Shown one piece after another: positions 2,724 through 30,848 of a stretch of 43,175 nucleotides of DNA. The notes under the pieces are model-generated. The model did no database searches and was not told where the DNA came from. It saw only the letters and a list, made by a program, of their open reading frames with translations. Location: IMG/VR virus record IMGVR_UViG_3300031598_000007, positions 1 through 43,175 of that record. The stretch is one strand, 5' to 3'. Each line of letters begins with the position of its first letter. The first letter of the stretch is position 1. Source of the stretch: a virus. Made by a program: the position numbers and the translations under genes.

Positions 2724-2943
2724 AATAATTCTCCTTAGCATTAGATACAGATGCAAACGACTAATGACTTATACAGAGGCTAAGTTCTACTAGGGTGCGT
2801 TCTTCAGAAAGTTGGCCTACCTTCTAATAAAACGGGCCACGAAACATTAGGTTGTCCGAAAGCGTTATTGTTGTTTGCGTAATTTTAGTGTATTACTAAT
2901 GCGGGTATCCGTATAGGGGCCGCATTAATACATTGTACATATA
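2724..2943 (-). promoter_or_regulatory. Structured leader of the capsid transcript
   Basis: About 220 bases without a gene between the scaffold and capsid genes. It contains an inverted repeat whose arms are 2890-2904 (GTATTACTAATGCGG) and 2920-2931 (CCGCATTAATAC), a 12-bp stem with a small bulge. There is no T-run on the transcribed side to make it a standard terminator. Transcription from 2944-2971 would give a leader of roughly 215 nt before the capsid ATG, including this hairpin near its 5' end. A role in stability or regulation is inference. Confidence 0.5.
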
Positions 2944-2971
2944 GTTATATCATAAATAACTTAGATGTCAA
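2944..2971 (-). promoter_or_regulatory. Putative capsid promoter (TTGACA-16-TATAAC)
   Basis: On the minus strand, TTGACA (complement of 2966-2971) and TATAAC (complement of 2944-2949) are separated by 16 bases, with TGA immediately before the -10 box. The same ATGATATAACTA string occurs in the promoter-like site at 29892-29920. It sits just after the scaffold stop codon and just upstream of the capsid leader, so it would boost capsid expression. Confidence 0.7.
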
Positions 2972-12948: not shown

Positions 12949-13299
12949 CTATTTCTTTCCAAAATATTTACTTACGCCACGCATACCAATGCTGGCACTT
13001 ACAATCCCACCTAGTGAGTATTGATACCAATCAGGCATAACTTCTAAAGCTATGAAACCCGCCTGAACAATTTGATTACCCCATTCTCCGCAGAACGCAA
13101 GTATTAAGGGAATACTAAATAGTAAAGTAATCCATTCGTCTTTCCAGCTATTTTGTGTAGCCTTCATAGCTTCAATGTCCCAATCAATCTCGCCTGTAGC
13201 GATCTTCATCTTTGTTTCAGCTTCAGCTTTCTTTACAACTGTCTTACCGTCAATGAATGCAGTAGCTAGTCCAGCTACACTATTAATAATACCTAACAT
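12949..13299 (-). CDS. Holin-like 3-TM protein
   Basis: 116 residues. An N-terminal amphipathic segment (GIINSVAGLATAFIDGKTVV), a charged stretch (KAEAETKMKIATGEIDWD), then hydrophobic segments around ITLLFSIPLILAFCG, IVQAGFIALEV and YSLGGIVSASIGMRG. This resembles the 3-TM holin family known from gene-transfer agents and alphaproteobacterial phages. It lies just upstream of the endolysin, overlapping the EF-hand gene by one base. It should permeabilise the inner membrane for endolysin export. Confidence 0.78.
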   Translation of the reverse strand: MLGIINSVAGLATAFIDGKTVVKKAEAETKMKIATGEIDWDIEAMKATQNSWKDEWITLLFSIPLILAFCGEWGNQIVQAGFIALEVMPDWYQYSLGGIVSASIGMRGVSKYFGKK

Positions 13300-13616
13300 T
13301 AAAATTCATCCTTTTTCTTTGTATTAGTGAAGCCAAAGAATGCACCTACGATTGCACTTACGGCAATGAAGTACACACCAGCTATGGAAGTTAATCCTGC
13401 TGTAGCTTCAGTCAACCCAGCTATAGCTGTAATAATAATAGTTAAAGGATAGATAAGCATACCTATAAGTGCAAACCAAACCATCTTACGTTGTTGATCT
13501 CGCTTTGAGTCTTCATCGTCAATCTGTCTACGTTTGTCATCAAGCAACAATGCGTCCCACTCACTCTTCTCGATTGAGCCGCTTTTATCTTTATCTATAT
13601 CTTCAAACTTTGTCAT
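13299..13616 (-). CDS. EF-hand plus two-TM membrane protein
   Basis: 105 residues. Residues 8-19 form a complete 12-residue EF-hand loop (DKDKSGSIEKSE, with D1, D3, S5, G6, I8 and E12 in register), followed by a charged linker and two hydrophobic segments (VWFALIGMLIYPLTIIITAI and SIAGVYFIAVSAIVGAFFG). The C-terminus is KKKDEF. It overlaps the holin gene by one base, so it is likely a lysis accessory, antiholin or second holin. Calcium binding is predicted from the motif only. Confidence 0.75.
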   Translation of the reverse strand: MTKFEDIDKDKSGSIEKSEWDALLLDDKRRQIDDEDSKRDQQRKMVWFALIGMLIYPLTIIITAIAGLTEATAGLTSIAGVYFIAVSAIVGAFFGFTNTKKKDEF

Positions 13617-13875: not shown

Positions 13876-14035
13876 CTACTTTAGCCTTTGCTGTTTTGTT
13901 TAAATCTTTATAATGAAATAACTTTACACTTGTTTTAGTGTGAGTCTTACCTGTATGTAAAGAGCCGTCACCCATCTTATGAGTTACGCCTTTAAATTCA
14001 GTGCCATCTTTTTTATAATGTGATACACCCTTCAT
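13844..14035 (-). CDS. Small basic protein, unknown function
   Basis: 63 residues, MKGVSHYKKDGTEFKGVTHK then MGDGSLHTGKTHTKTSVKLF and a Lys-rich end. Two related short strands (GVSHYKKDGTEF, GVTHKMGDGSLH) suggest an internal duplication. ATGA-type overlap with the gene at 14032-14217. Similar Lys/His-rich small proteins occur near phage lysis genes; role unknown. Confidence 0.65.
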   Translation of the reverse strand: MKGVSHYKKDGTEFKGVTHKMGDGSLHTGKTHTKTSVKLFHYKDLNKTAKAKVDGKNKKSKKP

Positions 14036-14217
14036 GTCTTATATCCTCCTCCATTTGCTTTATATCTTTTTGCCAATAGTTGCGCTTTACGTGCAGACCA
14101 TTTATTGGCCGGCCCCCCAGAGCTACCCCGTTTAATGCGATTAAACAAATCCCTCCGCATAGTAGGCTTAGTATAATTTCCTGCCTCATTTACTTTTGAC
14201 TTTGTTTTGGATGTCAT
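14032..14217 (-). CDS. Small Arg/Lys-rich protein, unknown function
   Basis: 61 residues: MTSKTKSKVNEAGNYTKPTM, then RRDLFNRIKRGSSGGPANKW and SARKAQLLAKRYKANGGGYK. The 'NRIKRGSSGGPANKWSARKAQLLAKRYK' type is frequent in small phage proteins. It overlaps the end of the DUF1127 gene by 32 bases. Function unknown. Confidence 0.65.
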   Translation of the reverse strand: MTSKTKSKVNEAGNYTKPTMRRDLFNRIKRGSSGGPANKWSARKAQLLAKRYKANGGGYKT

Positions 14218-14329
14218 GTCGGTTCATTCCTATGTCACGTAGTTCTCTGTCGGACATATGATTTAGTATCCATATGTTAGCACTTGCTTGACGACTTGCT
14301 ACAATTTTATTTATTATTCTCTTAAACAT
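14186..14329 (-). CDS. DUF1127 (YjiS-like) small protein
   Basis: 47 residues: MFKRIINKIVASRQASANIW, then ILNHMSDRELRDIGMNRHDI and a short basic tail. The MSDRELRDIG...R.DI signature is that of DUF1127, a family of small Arg-rich proteins abundant in alphaproteobacteria. AGGAGATAGAATAAT precedes the ATG, and a promoter lies at 14390-14418. Known bacterial members bind RNA or affect phosphate and carbon metabolism. In a phage it is probably host-derived and may alter host regulation. The gene call is firm; the role is inference. Confidence 0.85.
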   Translation of the reverse strand: MFKRIINKIVASRQASANIWILNHMSDRELRDIGMNRHDIQNKVKSK

Positions 14330-14350
14330 ATTATTCTATCTCCTGTAGGT

Positions 14351-14367
14351 GTAAGGCCATACCTTAC
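14351..14367 (-). promoter_or_regulatory. Hairpin in the DUF1127 leader
   Basis: A perfect inverted repeat, GTAAGG (14351-14356) and CCTTAC (14362-14367) with a five-base loop, lies between the promoter and the ribosome binding site of the DUF1127 gene. No T-run follows, so a leader structure is more likely than a terminator. Confidence 0.5.
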
Positions 14368-14389
14368 AAAGATAGTTATAACATACTTA

Positions 14390-14418
14390 GTTATACCATA
14401 CTACAGACAAGAATGCAA
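14390..14418 (-). promoter_or_regulatory. Putative promoter for DUF1127 and the lysis-side genes
   Basis: Minus strand TTGCAT (complement of 14413-14418), 17 bases, TATAAC (complement of 14390-14395), with TGG directly before the -10 box as an extended element. A second TATAACTA (complement of 14373-14380) lies downstream and may be part of an operator. This gives the DUF1127 gene an independent start in the middle of the leftward operon. Confidence 0.68.
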
Positions 14419-14449
14419 TACCGTTATGCACTATTGAGATAGGTTGCAA

Positions 14450-15112
14450 TTACTTCTTACCACGCCCTTGTGTACCTGACACAGATGCACCACAGTTAGC
14501 GTAACCACCTTTGTTGTAGCTCTTACCATATGGCATCTTTGCTTTCATGGGTGATCCACCTTTACTAAAGTCCATTGCGGGAGGAAGTGTCACTGGCTTA
14601 GCTCTTTTGTTTGATCTACCCTGCTCCATAGCACGTCCAACTTTGGACAACTCTGCAGCGTCAATGCGGTCAATGATAGTTTCGTATGTAGATTTATCTA
14701 TATCGCCAGCGTCATAAGCCTTCTTAGCTTCCCTACCCAAAGCGACACGCTTGGAAGTTGGTAGAGATCGGTACACAGCCAGAGACAAAGGTTTAAGGCC
14801 GGGTTTAGTAAGCATGGCTGAAGTGTTACCTACTGCTGCCTTACCACGCTCTATATCATCTTGTGGTTTTTTATCATCAAGTTTTTTAGTAACCTTATCA
14901 TCCAGTACAACTTTACGTGGTTCTGTATTAATAGTACCGCCCATGGATTGTTCTTTTTGTTTAACCCTAGCTAACTTCCTAGCCTCCGCTTGTGCTTTCT
15001 CTAAAAGTTTTCTTTCCTTTGCGGCTAGTAGGGCATCTATCTTTTTTTTCCTTCTTGAAGATGTCGGAACTTCACCGCCTAAAAATTTACGTAACTCTTT
15101 TGCTTTACCCAT
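14450..15112 (-). CDS. Lysine-rich hypothetical protein
   Basis: 220 residues, starting after AGGAGAATTATT, the same leader as the capsid gene. The N-terminal 75 residues are extremely basic and helical (SRRKKKIDALLAAKERKLLE). The middle contains PLSLAVYRSLPTSKRVALGR and DKSTYETIIDRIDAAELSKV. The C-terminus is Gly/Lys-rich (GGSPMKAKMPYGKSYNKGGY). It may be a DNA-associated virion or assembly protein. Family not recognised. Confidence 0.7.
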   Translation of the reverse strand: MGKAKELRKFLGGEVPTSSRRKKKIDALLAAKERKLLEKAQAEARKLARVKQKEQSMGGTINTEPRKVVLDDKVTKKLDDKKPQDDIERGKAAVGNTSAMLTKPGLKPLSLAVYRSLPTSKRVALGREAKKAYDAGDIDKSTYETIIDRIDAAELSKVGRAMEQGRSNKRAKPVTLPPAMDFSKGGSPMKAKMPYGKSYNKGGYANCGASVSGTQGRGKK

Positions 15113-15846: not shown

Positions 15847-16069
15847 TCCCTAATCGACATTGTTACACCTTTTGTGATGTATTGTAACATACTGTCACCA
15901 ATTGTGATATACCTCGAAGTGTGTACACCAGTGTATATGTAATGTGGTTAACACTCTCATTTTACTGATCTGTGTGTTTCTACATGTATAGTATCTACGC
16001 CACCCCCACTGGCCCCCGCCCACCTCTACATATACATACAATTACGGGCATTATGCAAGGTCATGGCGC

Positions 16070-16099
16070 GAGGTGAAAAAACAATTAATGCAACACCTC
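16070..16099. repeat. Inverted repeat GAGGTG/CACCTC
   Basis: Arms at 16070-16075 and 16094-16099 with an 18-base A/T-rich spacer. AGGTGAAAA recurs at 16212-16220. Possible regulator site; no other evidence. Confidence 0.4.
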
Positions 16100-16130
16100 A
16101 CCTTTTACATCAAAGATGTATACAAATCAA

Positions 16131-16217
16131 TCACTTACAGTGATAAGACAACTGTTATGCAATCAGTTGCCACTCTTTAGAGTGATAAAACGGGTCAGTT
16201 ATAGTCACCGAAGGTGA
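16131..16217. repeat. Cluster of short inverted repeats
   Basis: Four dyads in under 90 bases: TCACTTACAGTGA (16131-16143), CAACTG/CAGTTG (16149-16154, 16164-16169), CACTCTTTAGAGTG (16171-16184) and TCACCGAAGGTGA (16205-16217). The first and third are both followed by ATAA, giving a repeated AGTGATAA. None is followed by a T-run. They look like protein-binding dyads or origin hairpins. Confidence 0.6.
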
Positions 16218-16274
16218 AAAGAAGATGTCGAGCATAGAATAGTACACCCCCCTATTTCATTACATGAAATCAAA

Positions 16275-16377
16275 CTACGTCATCATCATCACATTACGTC
16301 ATCATGTTACATCATCATCATCATCACATTACGTCATCATCATCATGTTACATCATCATCATCATCACATTACGTCA
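16275..16377. repeat. CAT-rich iteron-like array
   Basis: Runs of (CAT)n alternate with two fixed words, ACATTACGTCA and GTTACATCA. The full unit is about 41 bases (16309-16349), with a shortened unit before it (16277-16308) and a partial one after (16350-16376). TACGTCA occurs at each unit. The array sits about 60 bases upstream of the rightward promoter. It resembles origin iterons or a cluster of activator sites. Confidence 0.8.
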
Positions 16378-16432
16378 CACTGCTAAAGAATAGAGCAACT
16401 GATTCGTTTTTTTGTTTTGAATAATCCAAATA

Positions 16433-21024: not shown

Positions 21025-21100
21025 CGATGACCCATGTGATGACTGGTCACGTACACCTTTACCGAAACCAATAAAACAACAGGAGAATAACAATGACTAA
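20999..21100 (+). CDS. Very short acidic peptide gene
   Basis: 33 residues: MKHQPYYSDDDPCDDWSRTP then LPKPIKQQENNND. It overlaps the previous gene by 26 bases and the next by 8. The composition (YYSDDDPCDDW) is protein-like, and the continuous overlap chain supports translation, but at this length it could be chance. Confidence 0.4.
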   Translation: MKHQPYYSDDDPCDDWSRTPLPKPIKQQENNND

Positions 21101-21713
21101 AGCAATACATATACAAAGTATATTTCAAATGATACTAAAGTTATTAGAACAAAAAGATATGGAAATAGATGAGGCTTTTACTGAGGGTGTAGAATTTGAT
21201 GCACAAAACCATGAAGATAAACGCTTTGCGTTAGCCGAAAGGGATAGGGTGCTTATTGATAAAGGCTACACGAAAGGTTTGCGTGAAGGTATTGGGTTTG
21301 GATATGATAAAGGCTACGATATAGGGAAAATTGCGCATCAAACCAACCGCACCGCCTCTTACGATGCAGGCTGGGAAGAAGGCTGTGAAGAAGGCTATGA
21401 AGAAGGCTACGATGCAGGCTGGTGTGAAGGCTATGATAGAGGCCACGCTAATGGTGAAGAAGAGCGATTGGAATTAGCAGATGCTTTAAGTAAAGCAGAG
21501 GAAAATGACTATGAAGCAGGCTGGGAAGAAGGCTGTGAAGAAGGCCACGATGCAGGCTGTAAAGAAGGCTATGAAGAAGGTCACGATGCAGGCTGGGATG
21601 AAGGCTATGATAAAGGCCACGATAATGGGGAAGATAGAGGCTTTAATAATGCCTGTCTTGCTATATCTACCTTTGCCTTAAATAAAGCAGAGGAAAATGA
21701 CGATGAAGAATGA
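21093..21713 (+). CDS. Glycine-every-fourth-residue (GX3) repeat protein
   Basis: 206 residues, start after AGGAGAATAACA. Gly occurs at every fourth position in three runs: six (58-78), eight (93-121) and eleven (143-183), with spacers such as W-E-E, Y-D-A, H-D-K. This is the GX3 pattern of Yae1/Lto1 ('deca-GX3') and of the FliH-type GxxxG helices, which pack helix to helix or bind partners. It is strongly acidic. DNA repeats (GGCTATGAAGAAGGC-like units) indicate recent expansion. Role unknown; the next gene encodes a membrane peptide. Confidence 0.75.
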   Translation: MTKAIHIQSIFQMILKLLEQKDMEIDEAFTEGVEFDAQNHEDKRFALAERDRVLIDKGYTKGLREGIGFGYDKGYDIGKIAHQTNRTASYDAGWEEGCEEGYEEGYDAGWCEGYDRGHANGEEERLELADALSKAEENDYEAGWEEGCEEGHDAGCKEGYEEGHDAGWDEGYDKGHDNGEDRGFNNACLAISTFALNKAEENDDEE

Positions 21714-27865: not shown

Positions 27866-29914
27866 ATGAAACACCTAACACTGGACGTAGAGAATACAAC
27901 AGTCAAACGTAATGGTAAGTTACACCTTGATCCATTTGAGCCAGAGAATACATTGGTACAAGTAGGTATGCTAGATGATCTTGGAAACGAAAACATTATA
28001 ACTTTCGATCACTCAGAGCAACAACCTACTACGGCGGGGCGGCAGATAGTGCAAGATGCATTAGACGCTACCCCGCTACTTATTGCCCACAACGCACCTC
28101 ACGATCTACTGTGGTTGTGGGAGTCAGGCTTTGTATATGATGGCGCTGTGTATGATACACTGTTAGGTGAGTACGTACTACAACGTGGTCAGAAGCAACC
28201 CCTATCACTTGATGCCTGTGCAGAACGATATGACTTAGACACAAAGAAACAAGATACATTAAAGGAGTACTTTAAGAATGGATATTCCACACGTGATATT
28301 CCTCATGCTGAACTATCGGAGTATCTATCACACGATCTTCACGCAACTCAAGAATTATACTACTGTTTGCAGACACAGTACGAGGAATGCAAATCACTAA
28401 TACCTACAATAGACTTGACTAATCAATTAGCTGTACACCTAGCACGTATATATCAACGTGGCTTTGCAGTTGATATGGATGCACTCAATGCAGTTCGTGT
28501 TGAGTTCGAACAAGAGCGTAACCTACTGATGATGGCGCTTGAAGAACATGCCAGTGACCTAATGGGTGACAGGCCAATAAACCTCAACAGCCCAGAGCAA
28601 TTGTCTTGGGTTATATATAGTCGTAAGCCGAAGGACAAGAAGATGTGGGCAGACCTGTTCGATGAACGAATGCCTGACGCTGAGTATCGACGTAACGTAA
28701 ATGCATACAGTGACAAATTGTACAAGCAGAAGGCACATCAGTGTCGGGAATGCAAGGGCAGTGGTCAGGTATGGAAAGAAAAGAAAGATGGTACACCTTA
28801 TGCTAGATCAAATAAATGCAATACTTGCTCCGCTAGTGGATATACTTTTACTGATAACATTAGCGCAGTGGCTGGCCTAAAGTTCTCACCCCCTAATTCC
28901 AAGTGGATTAGTGCCAACGGTTTTGGTACTGGCAAAGACAATCTTATATTCCTTGAGGGCATTGCACGTTCCAAGGGTATGAAGGATGCAGAGCTGTTCT
29001 TACAGAATGTACGTAGGTTGTCAGCCGTTGAGACATACCTCAGTAGTTTTGTTGAGGGCATAGCTACTCACGTCAAGCCCGATGGGTTGCTACATGTACG
29101 ACTACTACAACACCGCACTGGTACTGGACGGTTATCTGGTGCTGATCCTAACATGCAGAACATGCCACGTGGTGGTACGTTCCCAGTTAAGAAGGTGTTT
29201 GTGTCACGATGGAAGGGCGGTAAAATTTGCGAGGCGGATTTTGCACAACTTGAATTTCGAGTTGCGGCGTTCCTGTCACAAGACATGACTGCAATCAACG
29301 AGGTCATTGATGACTTTGATGTACATGCTTATACTGCTAAAGTTATATCTGATGCAGGCCAACCTATATCCAGACAGGAAGCAAAGTCACACACTTTCGC
29401 ACCCCTTTATGGCGCGTCGGGGTTCGGTAGATCACCAGCAGAAGCATCGTACTACAAGCAGTTCACGACTAAGTACAGTGGTGTAGCTAAGTGGCATGAG
29501 AGCCTAGCCAAAGAAGCCTTGAACACTGGCATGATAACTACACCATCAGGACGTGAGTTTGCATTCCCTGATGTGGTAAGACGACGATTTGGTGGGGTTA
29601 CATTCTTCACACAGATAAAGAATTATCCTGTCCAATCGTTTGCAACCGCAGACATAGTACCTATATCACTAATCTATATTGATAAGTTACTGTCTGCTAA
29701 CAAGCTACGTAGTTGCGTAGTAAATAGTGTACACGATTCAGTTGTAATCGACATACACCCTGATGAAGAGGAACAAGTACTAAAAGTAATACAAGCCACC
29801 AACGATAAGTTAGTACCAATCATCAATCGTAAGTGGGGTGTTGACTTCAATATACCCCTACTATTAGAGGCAAAGATTGGCCCAAACTGGCTTGACACAA
29901 AAGACGTAGTATGA
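27866..29914 (+). CDS. Family A DNA polymerase with 3'-5' exonuclease
   Basis: 682 residues. Exonuclease: D7/E9 (LTLDVENT), LIAHNAPHD (N76, D80), YLSHDLHAT (D157). Polymerase: motif A EADFAQLEFR (D458), motif B REAK-type QEAKSHTFAPLYG (K507, F511, Y515), motif C VVNSVHDSVV (H623/D624). Residues 293-321 carry CRECKGSG and CNTCSASG, a DnaJ-like zinc ribbon inserted between the exonuclease and palm (thumb region). Phe sits at the E. coli 762-equivalent position. It is the replicative polymerase. Confidence 0.95.
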   Translation: MKHLTLDVENTTVKRNGKLHLDPFEPENTLVQVGMLDDLGNENIITFDHSEQQPTTAGRQIVQDALDATPLLIAHNAPHDLLWLWESGFVYDGAVYDTLLGEYVLQRGQKQPLSLDACAERYDLDTKKQDTLKEYFKNGYSTRDIPHAELSEYLSHDLHATQELYYCLQTQYEECKSLIPTIDLTNQLAVHLARIYQRGFAVDMDALNAVRVEFEQERNLLMMALEEHASDLMGDRPINLNSPEQLSWVIYSRKPKDKKMWADLFDERMPDAEYRRNVNAYSDKLYKQKAHQCRECKGSGQVWKEKKDGTPYARSNKCNTCSASGYTFTDNISAVAGLKFSPPNSKWISANGFGTGKDNLIFLEGIARSKGMKDAELFLQNVRRLSAVETYLSSFVEGIATHVKPDGLLHVRLLQHRTGTGRLSGADPNMQNMPRGGTFPVKKVFVSRWKGGKICEADFAQLEFRVAAFLSQDMTAINEVIDDFDVHAYTAKVISDAGQPISRQEAKSHTFAPLYGASGFGRSPAEASYYKQFTTKYSGVAKWHESLAKEALNTGMITTPSGREFAFPDVVRRRFGGVTFFTQIKNYPVQSFATADIVPISLIYIDKLLSANKLRSCVVNSVHDSVVIDIHPDEEEQVLKVIQATNDKLVPIINRKWGVDFNIPLLLEAKIGPNWLDTKDVV

Positions 29915-29920
29915 TATAAC
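29892..29920 (+). promoter_or_regulatory. Strong putative promoter at the end of the polymerase gene
   Basis: TTGACA (29892-29897), exactly 17 bases, TATAAC (29915-29920) with TGA before it. It overlaps the polymerase stop and lies 34 bases before the ATG at 29955, after AGGAGAATATAAT. ATGATATAACTA is shared with the capsid promoter. Confidence 0.75.
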
Positions 29921-29954
29921 TAAATTTCAGTAAAATATATTAGGAGAATATAAT

Positions 29955-30848
29955 ATGAATGAAGTAACAACGATAGACACTAACAACTTTGCGGCAATGG
30001 CGACAGCTATGGGCATGGGTTCAGAAGGTAAGAAGTCAACCAGTAAATCGAGTACACTGGCACGACTTCGTATCCATCACACCCCCATCATGGGTGAGCA
30101 GGAGCTTGCAGGTAAGATGAAGAAGGTAGAGGTAATTGCTGGCGGTGCATATAAGCTAGAGATTCCCGATGGTGAAACAGTATACGCCGAAGGTGTAGTC
30201 ATTCGCCCATTCTTACAGCGGTTTATGTATAAGAAGTTTATCAAGGGTAATGAGAACACAGCTAACCGCTTCCTTAAAACTGTCATGGCTAACAACCTAA
30301 ACAGTGACATGAAGGATAATGAGGGTGGCTTTAACTGTGGTAAACCTGCAGGCTACATCAAAGATTGGGCGGCGTTGCCAGATACTATGAAAGACCTTAT
30401 CAAGTCTATCAAACGTGTTCGTGCTTTGTTTGGTACAGTACAACTGGTAGGTGCAACCGACGAGAAAGGCAATGCAGTAGACGTAGAAGCTACACCATTC
30501 ATCTGGGAGATTGATAACCGTGACGCCTTCAAGACAATGGGCGACATGTTTACCAAGCTAGAGAAGATGCGTAGGCTACCACCACAGCACAACATTACCT
30601 TGAGTACAAGAGAAGTACCCCTACCAAACGGCAGTAGCTTCTTTGTACCAGAGGCAGATTTGGACTTGAGTACTACATTAGAGATGGAGAATGAAGCACA
30701 AGAAGTCTTCGCAAGTTTCGTTGCATGGATTGCTAACTATAATACATACATCCTTGGGGCATGGGATGAAAACATGCACAAGAATGAAGAGGTAGATATG
30801 GATACAGTAGAGGAATTTGTAGATATATCTGCAGAGGACTTCGTGTAA
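29955..30848 (+). CDS. Putative ssDNA-binding protein
   Basis: 297 residues. Soluble, with a central basic region (RFMYKKFIKGNENTANRFLK) and a very acidic C-terminal tail (EEVDMDTVEEFVDISAEDFV) that ends in an aromatic residue, like the tails of T7 gp2.5 and SSB that bind replication partners. It follows the polymerase and has its own promoter, as an abundant SSB would need. The core fold is not recognisable to me, so this is an inference. Confidence 0.5.
   Translation: MNEVTTIDTNNFAAMATAMGMGSEGKKSTSKSSTLARLRIHHTPIMGEQELAGKMKKVEVIAGGAYKLEIPDGETVYAEGVVIRPFLQRFMYKKFIKGNENTANRFLKTVMANNLNSDMKDNEGGFNCGKPAGYIKDWAALPDTMKDLIKSIKRVRALFGTVQLVGATDEKGNAVDVEATPFIWEIDNRDAFKTMGDMFTKLEKMRRLPPQHNITLSTREVPLPNGSSFFVPEADLDLSTTLEMENEAQEVFASFVAWIANYNTYILGAWDENMHKNEEVDMDTVEEFVDISAEDFV

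Follow-up and report, generated by a model that had tools for sequence, protein, structure and literature searches.

The closest described counterpart of the leader considered here is found in bacteriophage T4. As reported for T4 (PMC3014915), early transcripts extending into gene e have the Shine-Dalgarno (SD) sequence of that gene masked, whereas those begun at two late promoters a short way upstream do not contain the 5' strand of the masking helix and are translated; soc, 49 and I-TevI resemble gene e in this masking. In a roseophage locus encoding a small DUF1127 protein, we observe promoters that likewise lie in or beside the region encoding the 5' strand of an SD-masking helix, and, as in gene e, there are two of them. 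The likeness is one of anatomy: in T4 the longer RNA is silent and the promoter-proximal RNA translatable, while the roseophage start sites are predicted. The phages and the gene are unrelated, T4 employs late-type promoters where those of the roseophage are of the sigma-70 type, and only the roseophage has a tandem pair at a fixed 14-15 nt, the first member of which should give a silent RNA, together with a conserved upstream element. A search of the literature on such leader gating returned T4 reviews and a single unrelated paper.

Host DUF1127 proteins have themselves been given differing roles. In published work one host DUF1127 protein binds PhoR, a sensor kinase, and complementation succeeds between species (PMC12501420), another binds RNA and affects RNase E-linked maturation and mRNA half-life (PMC10253847), and Salmonella YjiS showed no association with transcripts (PMC11707872). 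The host proteins (CcaF1 of Rhodobacter, the Agrobacterium trio, YjiS) share with the phage copies the Pfam domain, an L..MSDRELRDIG..R..I-type core, basic character and a helical fold. A Sinorhizobium DUF1127 gene, duf1127-1, is subject to attenuation dependent on an upstream ORF (PMC12218461, in part), and its leader resembles that of the roseophage in being structured and in pairing the ribosome binding site; however, the Sinorhizobium system needs a translated upstream ORF and premature termination, and a conserved upstream ORF is not apparent in the roseophages. The host DUF1127 papers, in the sections available, do not describe the roseophage-type leader architecture, nor is a phage-encoded DUF1127 described in the available parts of the literature pairing DUF1127 with phage; the main text of the HMO-2011-type phage paper, as far as accessible, contains neither 'DUF' nor 'promoter'.

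The window, by which we mean the entire 43,175-nucleotide stretch of viral DNA analyzed, can be assigned to an HMO-2011-type roseophage because its terminase is 82% identical to that of Roseobacter phage CRP-1 and 80% to that of HMO-2011. Its DNA polymerase carries the CRECKGSG motif, which is described for HMO-2011-type phages (PMC9038755, in the part of the text available), and a tyrosine integrase is encoded as well. At 43 kb it compares with 53-56 kb in the listed roseophage relatives (the virus record carries no completeness value), and it seems to be without the tail gene block that adjoins the capsid genes in CRP-345. Other features of the stretch include a 105-aa protein of the lysis block (13299-13616, minus strand), whose N-terminus is EF-hand-like (PF13202, 1.5e-4, below cut-off) and is succeeded by hydrophobic stretches, and which is possibly a calcium-binding membrane or holin-like protein; an intergenic stretch at about 15900-16400, separating the leftward from the rightward block, which contains simple CAT/ATC repeats, shows no clear gene and is a candidate origin or site of the main divergent promoters; and a 206-aa protein of repeated G-Y/W-x-E/D-G-Y units (21093-21713, plus strand). 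An Rfam search over the window returned no family.

The 47-aa ORF at 14186-14329 on the minus strand is a real DUF1127 gene. Its protein, MFKRIINKIVASRQASANIWILNHMSDRELRDIGMNRHDIQNKVKSK, matches PF06568 in Pfam at E 7.3e-7 and 29.3 bits against a cut-off of 23.3, so that the 47-residue DUF1127 protein of the preliminary description, a reading that hinged on such a profile match, is substantiated. The match covers residues 22-41 of the ORF, equivalent to positions 18-37 of the 37 in the profile, i.e. the C-terminal half; the same profile gives 28.5 bits and its sole match in the window in a genome-wide search, and phrog_26566 is matched at 1e-6. The gene is evidently under constraint, with dN/dS of 0.18 and 0.22 against its nearest relatives (L024 and L022) and 0.08-0.25 in 13 of 14 hand-picked DUF1127 pairs, the fourteenth (L008/L089, with few changes) standing at 0.54. 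An AlphaFold model built on 24 rows has three helices (mean pLDDT 85, pTM 0.51). As had been described, the gene sits within the leftward block, flanked by ORFs 14450-15112 and 14032-14217; the latter, a 61-aa gene matching phrog_17747 on the minus strand, is overlapped by 32 nt, and endolysin and terminase come after it. No terminator-like site is listed on the minus strand at the DUF1127 gene.

An extended -10 promoter had been proposed for this gene, and one is present; what was taken to be a single promoter is, however, a tandem pair accompanied by an upstream element. The motif TATGNTATAACTA occurs exactly at 14388-14400 and at 14373-14385 on the minus strand, 15 nt apart. The upstream copy, P1, reads TATGGTATAACTA with its hexamer at 14390-14395, and the downstream copy, P2, reads TATGTTATAACTA with its hexamer at 14375-14380. 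Four copies of TATGNTATAACTA exist in the window, whereas 300 dinucleotide shuffles averaged 0.017 copies and never had more than 1; the other two copies precede the major capsid gene (2942, minus strand) and an SSB-like gene (29910, plus strand). A generic sigma-70 scan of the window did not list P1 and P2, because that scan demands T at position 6 of the -10 hexamer. TTGACA stands upstream of the capsid and SSB copies at about sigma-70 spacing, as read from the sequence, and for this reason we do not favour TATGNTATAACTA as the promoter of a phage polymerase. The SSB-like gene, which lies behind the DNA polymerase, has its own TTGACA / TGATATAAC promoter (29910-29955, plus strand), and in CRP-345 (L300, about 13377-13421) a TGATATAACTA box occupies the same place before the SSB-like gene. 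An inverted repeat lies beyond the extended -10 with TTGACA at the capsid gene (2850-2960, minus strand) and would fold into a hairpin at the 5' end of that gene's leader.

Upstream of P1 lies the element CATAACGGTATTGCA (14414-14428, minus strand), the only exact copy in the window. Its TTGCAT (14413-14418) stands 17 nt from the P1 -10 and is a possible -35 of P1. When the 15-bp consensus CATAACGGGGTTGCA was scanned exactly and alone, without any protein, through 2.9 million viral contigs, at least 119 sites were found, and among the matches listed DUF1127 followed within 420 nt at 115 of the 118 sites with at least 250 nt downstream (the three without it being L185, L202 and L255). As such, the element is specific to the DUF1127 gene. 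The geometry beneath it is equally regular: tandem -10 boxes are present in 32 of 44 leader clusters, spaced by 14 or 15 nt in 31 of these, and P2 lies 36-37 nt from the TGCA in 30 of the 32. In clusters with a single box the P2 position is retained in 7 of 12, again at 36-37 nt, the remaining five comprising two with other distances and three lacking the TGCA. P2 is the promoter that is kept.

The leader itself bears the strong ribosome binding site and the hairpin that had been predicted for it. The SD, AGGAG, lies at 14340-14344 (minus strand, as are all elements of the leader), 10 nt before the ATG, and the hairpin occupies 14350-14368, the predicted 5' end of the P2 RNA; the 71-nt leader stretch folds with z = -3.2, one of 200 shuffles being as stable. 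Overlapping the SD is a right arm, AGATAG (14336-14341), which pairs in the predicted folds of the long RNA with a left arm, CTATCT (14370-14375). The left arm begins on the final base of the P2 -10 and stops immediately short of the predicted P2 start, and is consequently absent from the predicted P2 RNA. Comparable pairs recur among relatives, for instance CTACTCCT with AGGAGTAG in CRP-9, ACTATCTCC with GGAGATAGT in CRP-207, GTCTCCG with CGGAGAC in CRP-13 and CTATCCTC with GAGGATAG in the contig leader L052; in a stem table of 28 clusters, complementarity to the SD resides, for most leaders, in the bases that directly follow the P2 -10. The left arm precedes the -10 in CRP-235 and CRP-738, and includes it in L041, L033 and L049. 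If transcription starts, as predicted, 7-8 nt past the -10, the P2 RNA of most clusters would be deprived of the arm wholly or for the most part, and in six to eight clusters of the 28-cluster table it would still contain at least half of the arm. In 31 of 44 clusters pairing predominates within the opening 8 nt of the P2 RNA.

These clusters derive from two overlapping collections. The first comprised 87 leaders in 28 clusters, with 10 cobavirus, rhizobial and DSS3P8 rows set aside, two short leaders (L082, L090) dropped and four DUF1127 hits (L001, L100, L101, L104) excluded because they represented either the locus of the window itself or duplicate contigs. The second began from at least 116 element sites with DUF1127 next, for 94 of which a start was found; after removal of leaders under 85 nt, and with the 28 representatives added, it contained 96 items in 44 clusters. 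Leaders were folded at 20 C, and start offsets of 6-9 were all computed for the 28 clusters. In that set the probability that the SD is unpaired, here called the SD unpaired value, was 0.15 in the read-through RNA, 0.15 in the P1 RNA (19 clusters) and 0.61 in the P2 RNA; the corresponding values for the 44 clusters were 0.136, 0.111 (32 clusters) and 0.651. The effect is not uniform, as 33 of the 44 clusters open by at least 0.2 and 11 do not, two of the latter reversing, and several are still masked in the P2 RNA.

The predicted masking is tied to each leader's own left arm. When left parts were swapped between phages, the read-through SD unpaired value rose to 0.330 (28 clusters) and 0.319 (44 clusters), the native value lying below the swapped one in 37 of 44 (p 1.9e-7), and none of 10000 permutations of the left arm reached the native complementarity. 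A stem of at least 6 bp is found in 34 of 44 native leaders as compared with 35% of exchanged ones, and one of at least 5 bp in 41 of 44, with flanking positions that alternate between A-T and T-A, both sides changing. Swap and permutation tests, which are free of register, were used in place of column-wise covariation because the stem register differs between rows (the 24 sequences compared for register were chosen by eye from the 44 clusters). Other genes do not behave in this way: 46 other SD-bearing genes of the same loci showed no switch (0.42 and 0.46), nor, on average, did a further 31 genes preceded by a TGnTATAAY promoter (0.42 and 0.44). Among these 31, ten had an SD unpaired value below 0.1 in the read-through RNA and four opened by at least 0.2, in a set that includes the short L216, L183, L248 and L236, which may be DUF1127 variants missed by the motif. 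The SSB gene of the window gave 0.83 and 0.77, and a gating common to that gene was accordingly rejected.

The gate of the window belongs to the weaker examples. One scoring takes its SD from 0.33 unpaired in the read-through RNA to 0.42-0.52 in the P2 RNA, and pooled scoring over four SD bases moves it in the wrong direction, from 0.42 to 0.29; only the SD-to-AUG region as a whole switches clearly, with 0.20 in the read-through RNA, 0.23-0.33 in the P1 RNA and 0.51-0.57 in the P2 RNA (20 and 37 C). Furthermore, 18 of 27 swapped arms mask the window SD as well as its own arm does. Because this leader switches weakly, the claim of a gate rests on the family. Relative to the predicted starts, the 5' arm of the SD-masking helix lies at or upstream of the promoter start, as in the T4-type leaders, albeit weakly so in the window. 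An RNA thermometer is not favoured, as many stems are long and perfect (the window leader was folded at 12, 20 and 37 C).

Taken as a whole, we judge it fairly probable that the locus constitutes a promoter-embedded translation gate around a lineage-wide DUF1127 regulatory gene. The gene, the promoter motifs, their fixed geometry and the maintained complementarity are established computationally; it is the start sites, the translational effect and the timing that we infer. RNA that reads through, or that begins at P1, would carry the left arm, which is generally encoded by the bases separating the P2 -10 from the P2 start and in some phages by the -10 or by bases immediately before it, and this arm would pair with the SD and leave DUF1127 off. 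RNA from P2 would begin past the arm, often with a 5' hairpin, and its SD would be free. Given the layout of T4 gene e, soc and I-TevI, the DUF1127 gene is probably translated only from the P2 RNA, in which case its dose would be set by P2 alone, independently of the transcription that the surrounding lysis and packaging block receives. The read-through masking also makes it more plausible that DUF1127 has, as had been suggested, a timing distinct from that of its neighbours. An extension of this scheme, in which the choice of start site between promoters 14-15 nt apart decides the synthesis of a host-mimic regulator, such that P1 RNA serves downstream genes with DUF1127 off, P2 RNA represents DUF1127 on and a dedicated factor at CATAACGGGGTTGCA does the choosing, is conceivable, and we regard it as rather doubtful.

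DUF1127-like places were found by tblastn (E limit 10) in 40 phage records, mostly phages of alphaproteobacteria, 35 of them over at least 80% of the query and the last five rows short and weak. Ten HMO-2011-type roseophages are among these, and CRP-3, missed by tblastn, is positive by profile, such that DUF1127 is present in every one of the 11 HMO-2011-type roseophage isolates examined, these being the CRP records whose terminase identity exceeds 60%. None was found in the five relatives searched, namely HMO-2011 (SAR116), HTVC033P and HTVC115P (SAR11), and RHph_N3_19 and phiM6 (rhizobia); the profile search of HMO-2011 relatives left out MW202701. In the HMO-2011-type roseophages, DUF1127 is a small and probably regulatory gene shared across the lineage. 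Viral contigs held at least 414 DUF1127 relatives among at least 600 pattern matches (80 were kept), and only three of the 80 contigs retrieved through the adjoining 61-aa gene had DUF1127 in the stretch examined. One 80-kb contig, IMGVR_UViG_3300046167_000032, has two loci (L026 and L027) with identical protein and leader about 55 kb apart, and is probably an over-long assembly of a 55-kb genome.

On the host side, DUF1127 is present in 99 of 100 sampled genomes of the family to which the genome of L337 (titled Primorskyibacter flagellatus) belongs, at 1-11 copies each. A scan of one genome per species yielded 39 relatives, all from alphaproteobacteria by title or genus name, whose best matches spanning at least 35 residues are about 40-54% identical, shorter stretches being higher. 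The tree (126 rows, 56 columns) has few resolved forks. In it the phage copies group apart from the sampled host copies with weak support; 28 HMO-type rows lie on one side of a branch with an SH-aLRT of 80, which is not strong, and seven cobavirus-type rows on one side of another with 96, and holding the two types together was not rejected (p-AU 0.85). Given these values, the phage copies may form a single old lineage, and the two genomic settings may even go back to a common origin.

The second of these settings is found in the cobaviruses (SIO1, P12053L, ICBM1, CRP-4 and CRP-5) and in CRP-6 and CRP-403, roseophages that carry DUF1127 as do the HMO-type phages, in this case between MazG and ribonucleotide reductase, overlapping or near those genes (with an extra ORF in CRP-6) and without the HMO-type promoter or leader. 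In SIO1 the frame is unannotated, just before ribonucleotide reductase. The same MazG-DUF1127-reductase order (L004, L005, L014-L018) runs through cobaviruses, CRP-6 and the autographivirus CRP-403, with DUF1127 annotated as hypothetical or not at all.

Alternative explanations of the locus have to be weighed against the gate. The preliminary description took the gene for a moron, that is, a host gene acquired independently and expressed from its own promoter in a prophage to alter the host. A promoter of its own, of sigma-70 type, it does have, and an integrase match, obtained in the window and in 8 of the 11 other HMO-type records that were searched, suits a prophage; yet there is no terminator, the gene overlaps the next ORF by those 32 nt, its presence in 11 of 11 HMO-type roseophages is not sporadic, and the phage copies fall, with modest support, on one side of a branch. 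We consider a classical moron unlikely. Were the leader hairpin instead an operator through which an RNA-binding DUF1127 protein represses itself, the structured leader and the RNA binding of CcaF1 (PMC10253847, in part) would find a ready explanation, but the sequence of the stem is not conserved, its complementarity alone being so, and the arm is located where the P2 RNA would lose it; autoregulation of this kind thus strikes us as very improbable.

Two further readings were weighed. Translation-dependent attenuation of transcription through a short upstream ORF has its precedent in the Sinorhizobium gene, the leader of which also pairs the ribosome binding site (PMC12218461, in part), but the 9-codon ATG frame of the window leader is missing from other leaders when these are inspected by eye, and we give this mechanism hardly any credence. 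The inverted repeats might equally be sites for a regulator at the level of DNA, over the -10 and the SD, with RNA pairing incidental. That the arm includes the -10 in the three leaders named earlier, which renders the right arm an inverted copy of the -10, speaks for such an element, and the arms could partly be a DNA-level inverted repeat; the left arm nevertheless shifts between the -10, the discriminator and positions upstream while the right arm stays on the SD, and as a full account the DNA-level reading is in our estimation very unlikely.

With regard to function, action of the phage protein upon host physiology is plausible because 99 of the 100 sampled family genomes carry DUF1127. 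A more particular proposal, toward which we are tentative and lean slightly to doubt, is that by analogy the phage copy would supplement or override the DUF1127 proteins of the host, whose binding to PhoR keeps the Pho regulon in check and which, in Rhodobacter, bind RNA and change the turnover of mRNA. Since the cobavirus DUF1127 genes lie beside nucleotide genes and near PhoH, phosphate or nucleotide economy is an attractive, if conjectural, use for the protein.

A second promoter, a dedicated upstream element and a probable, conserved gate on translation within the promoter itself all go beyond what had been described for this locus. If the gate is real, promoter-embedded masking of the SD has evolved outside the T4-type phages, around one tiny gene, and such masking has been conserved by compensatory change in widespread viruses of the ocean. 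DUF1127, for which PhoR and RNA binding are debated as activities, is carried by phages in at least two genomic settings, and its role would thereby become testable in infection.
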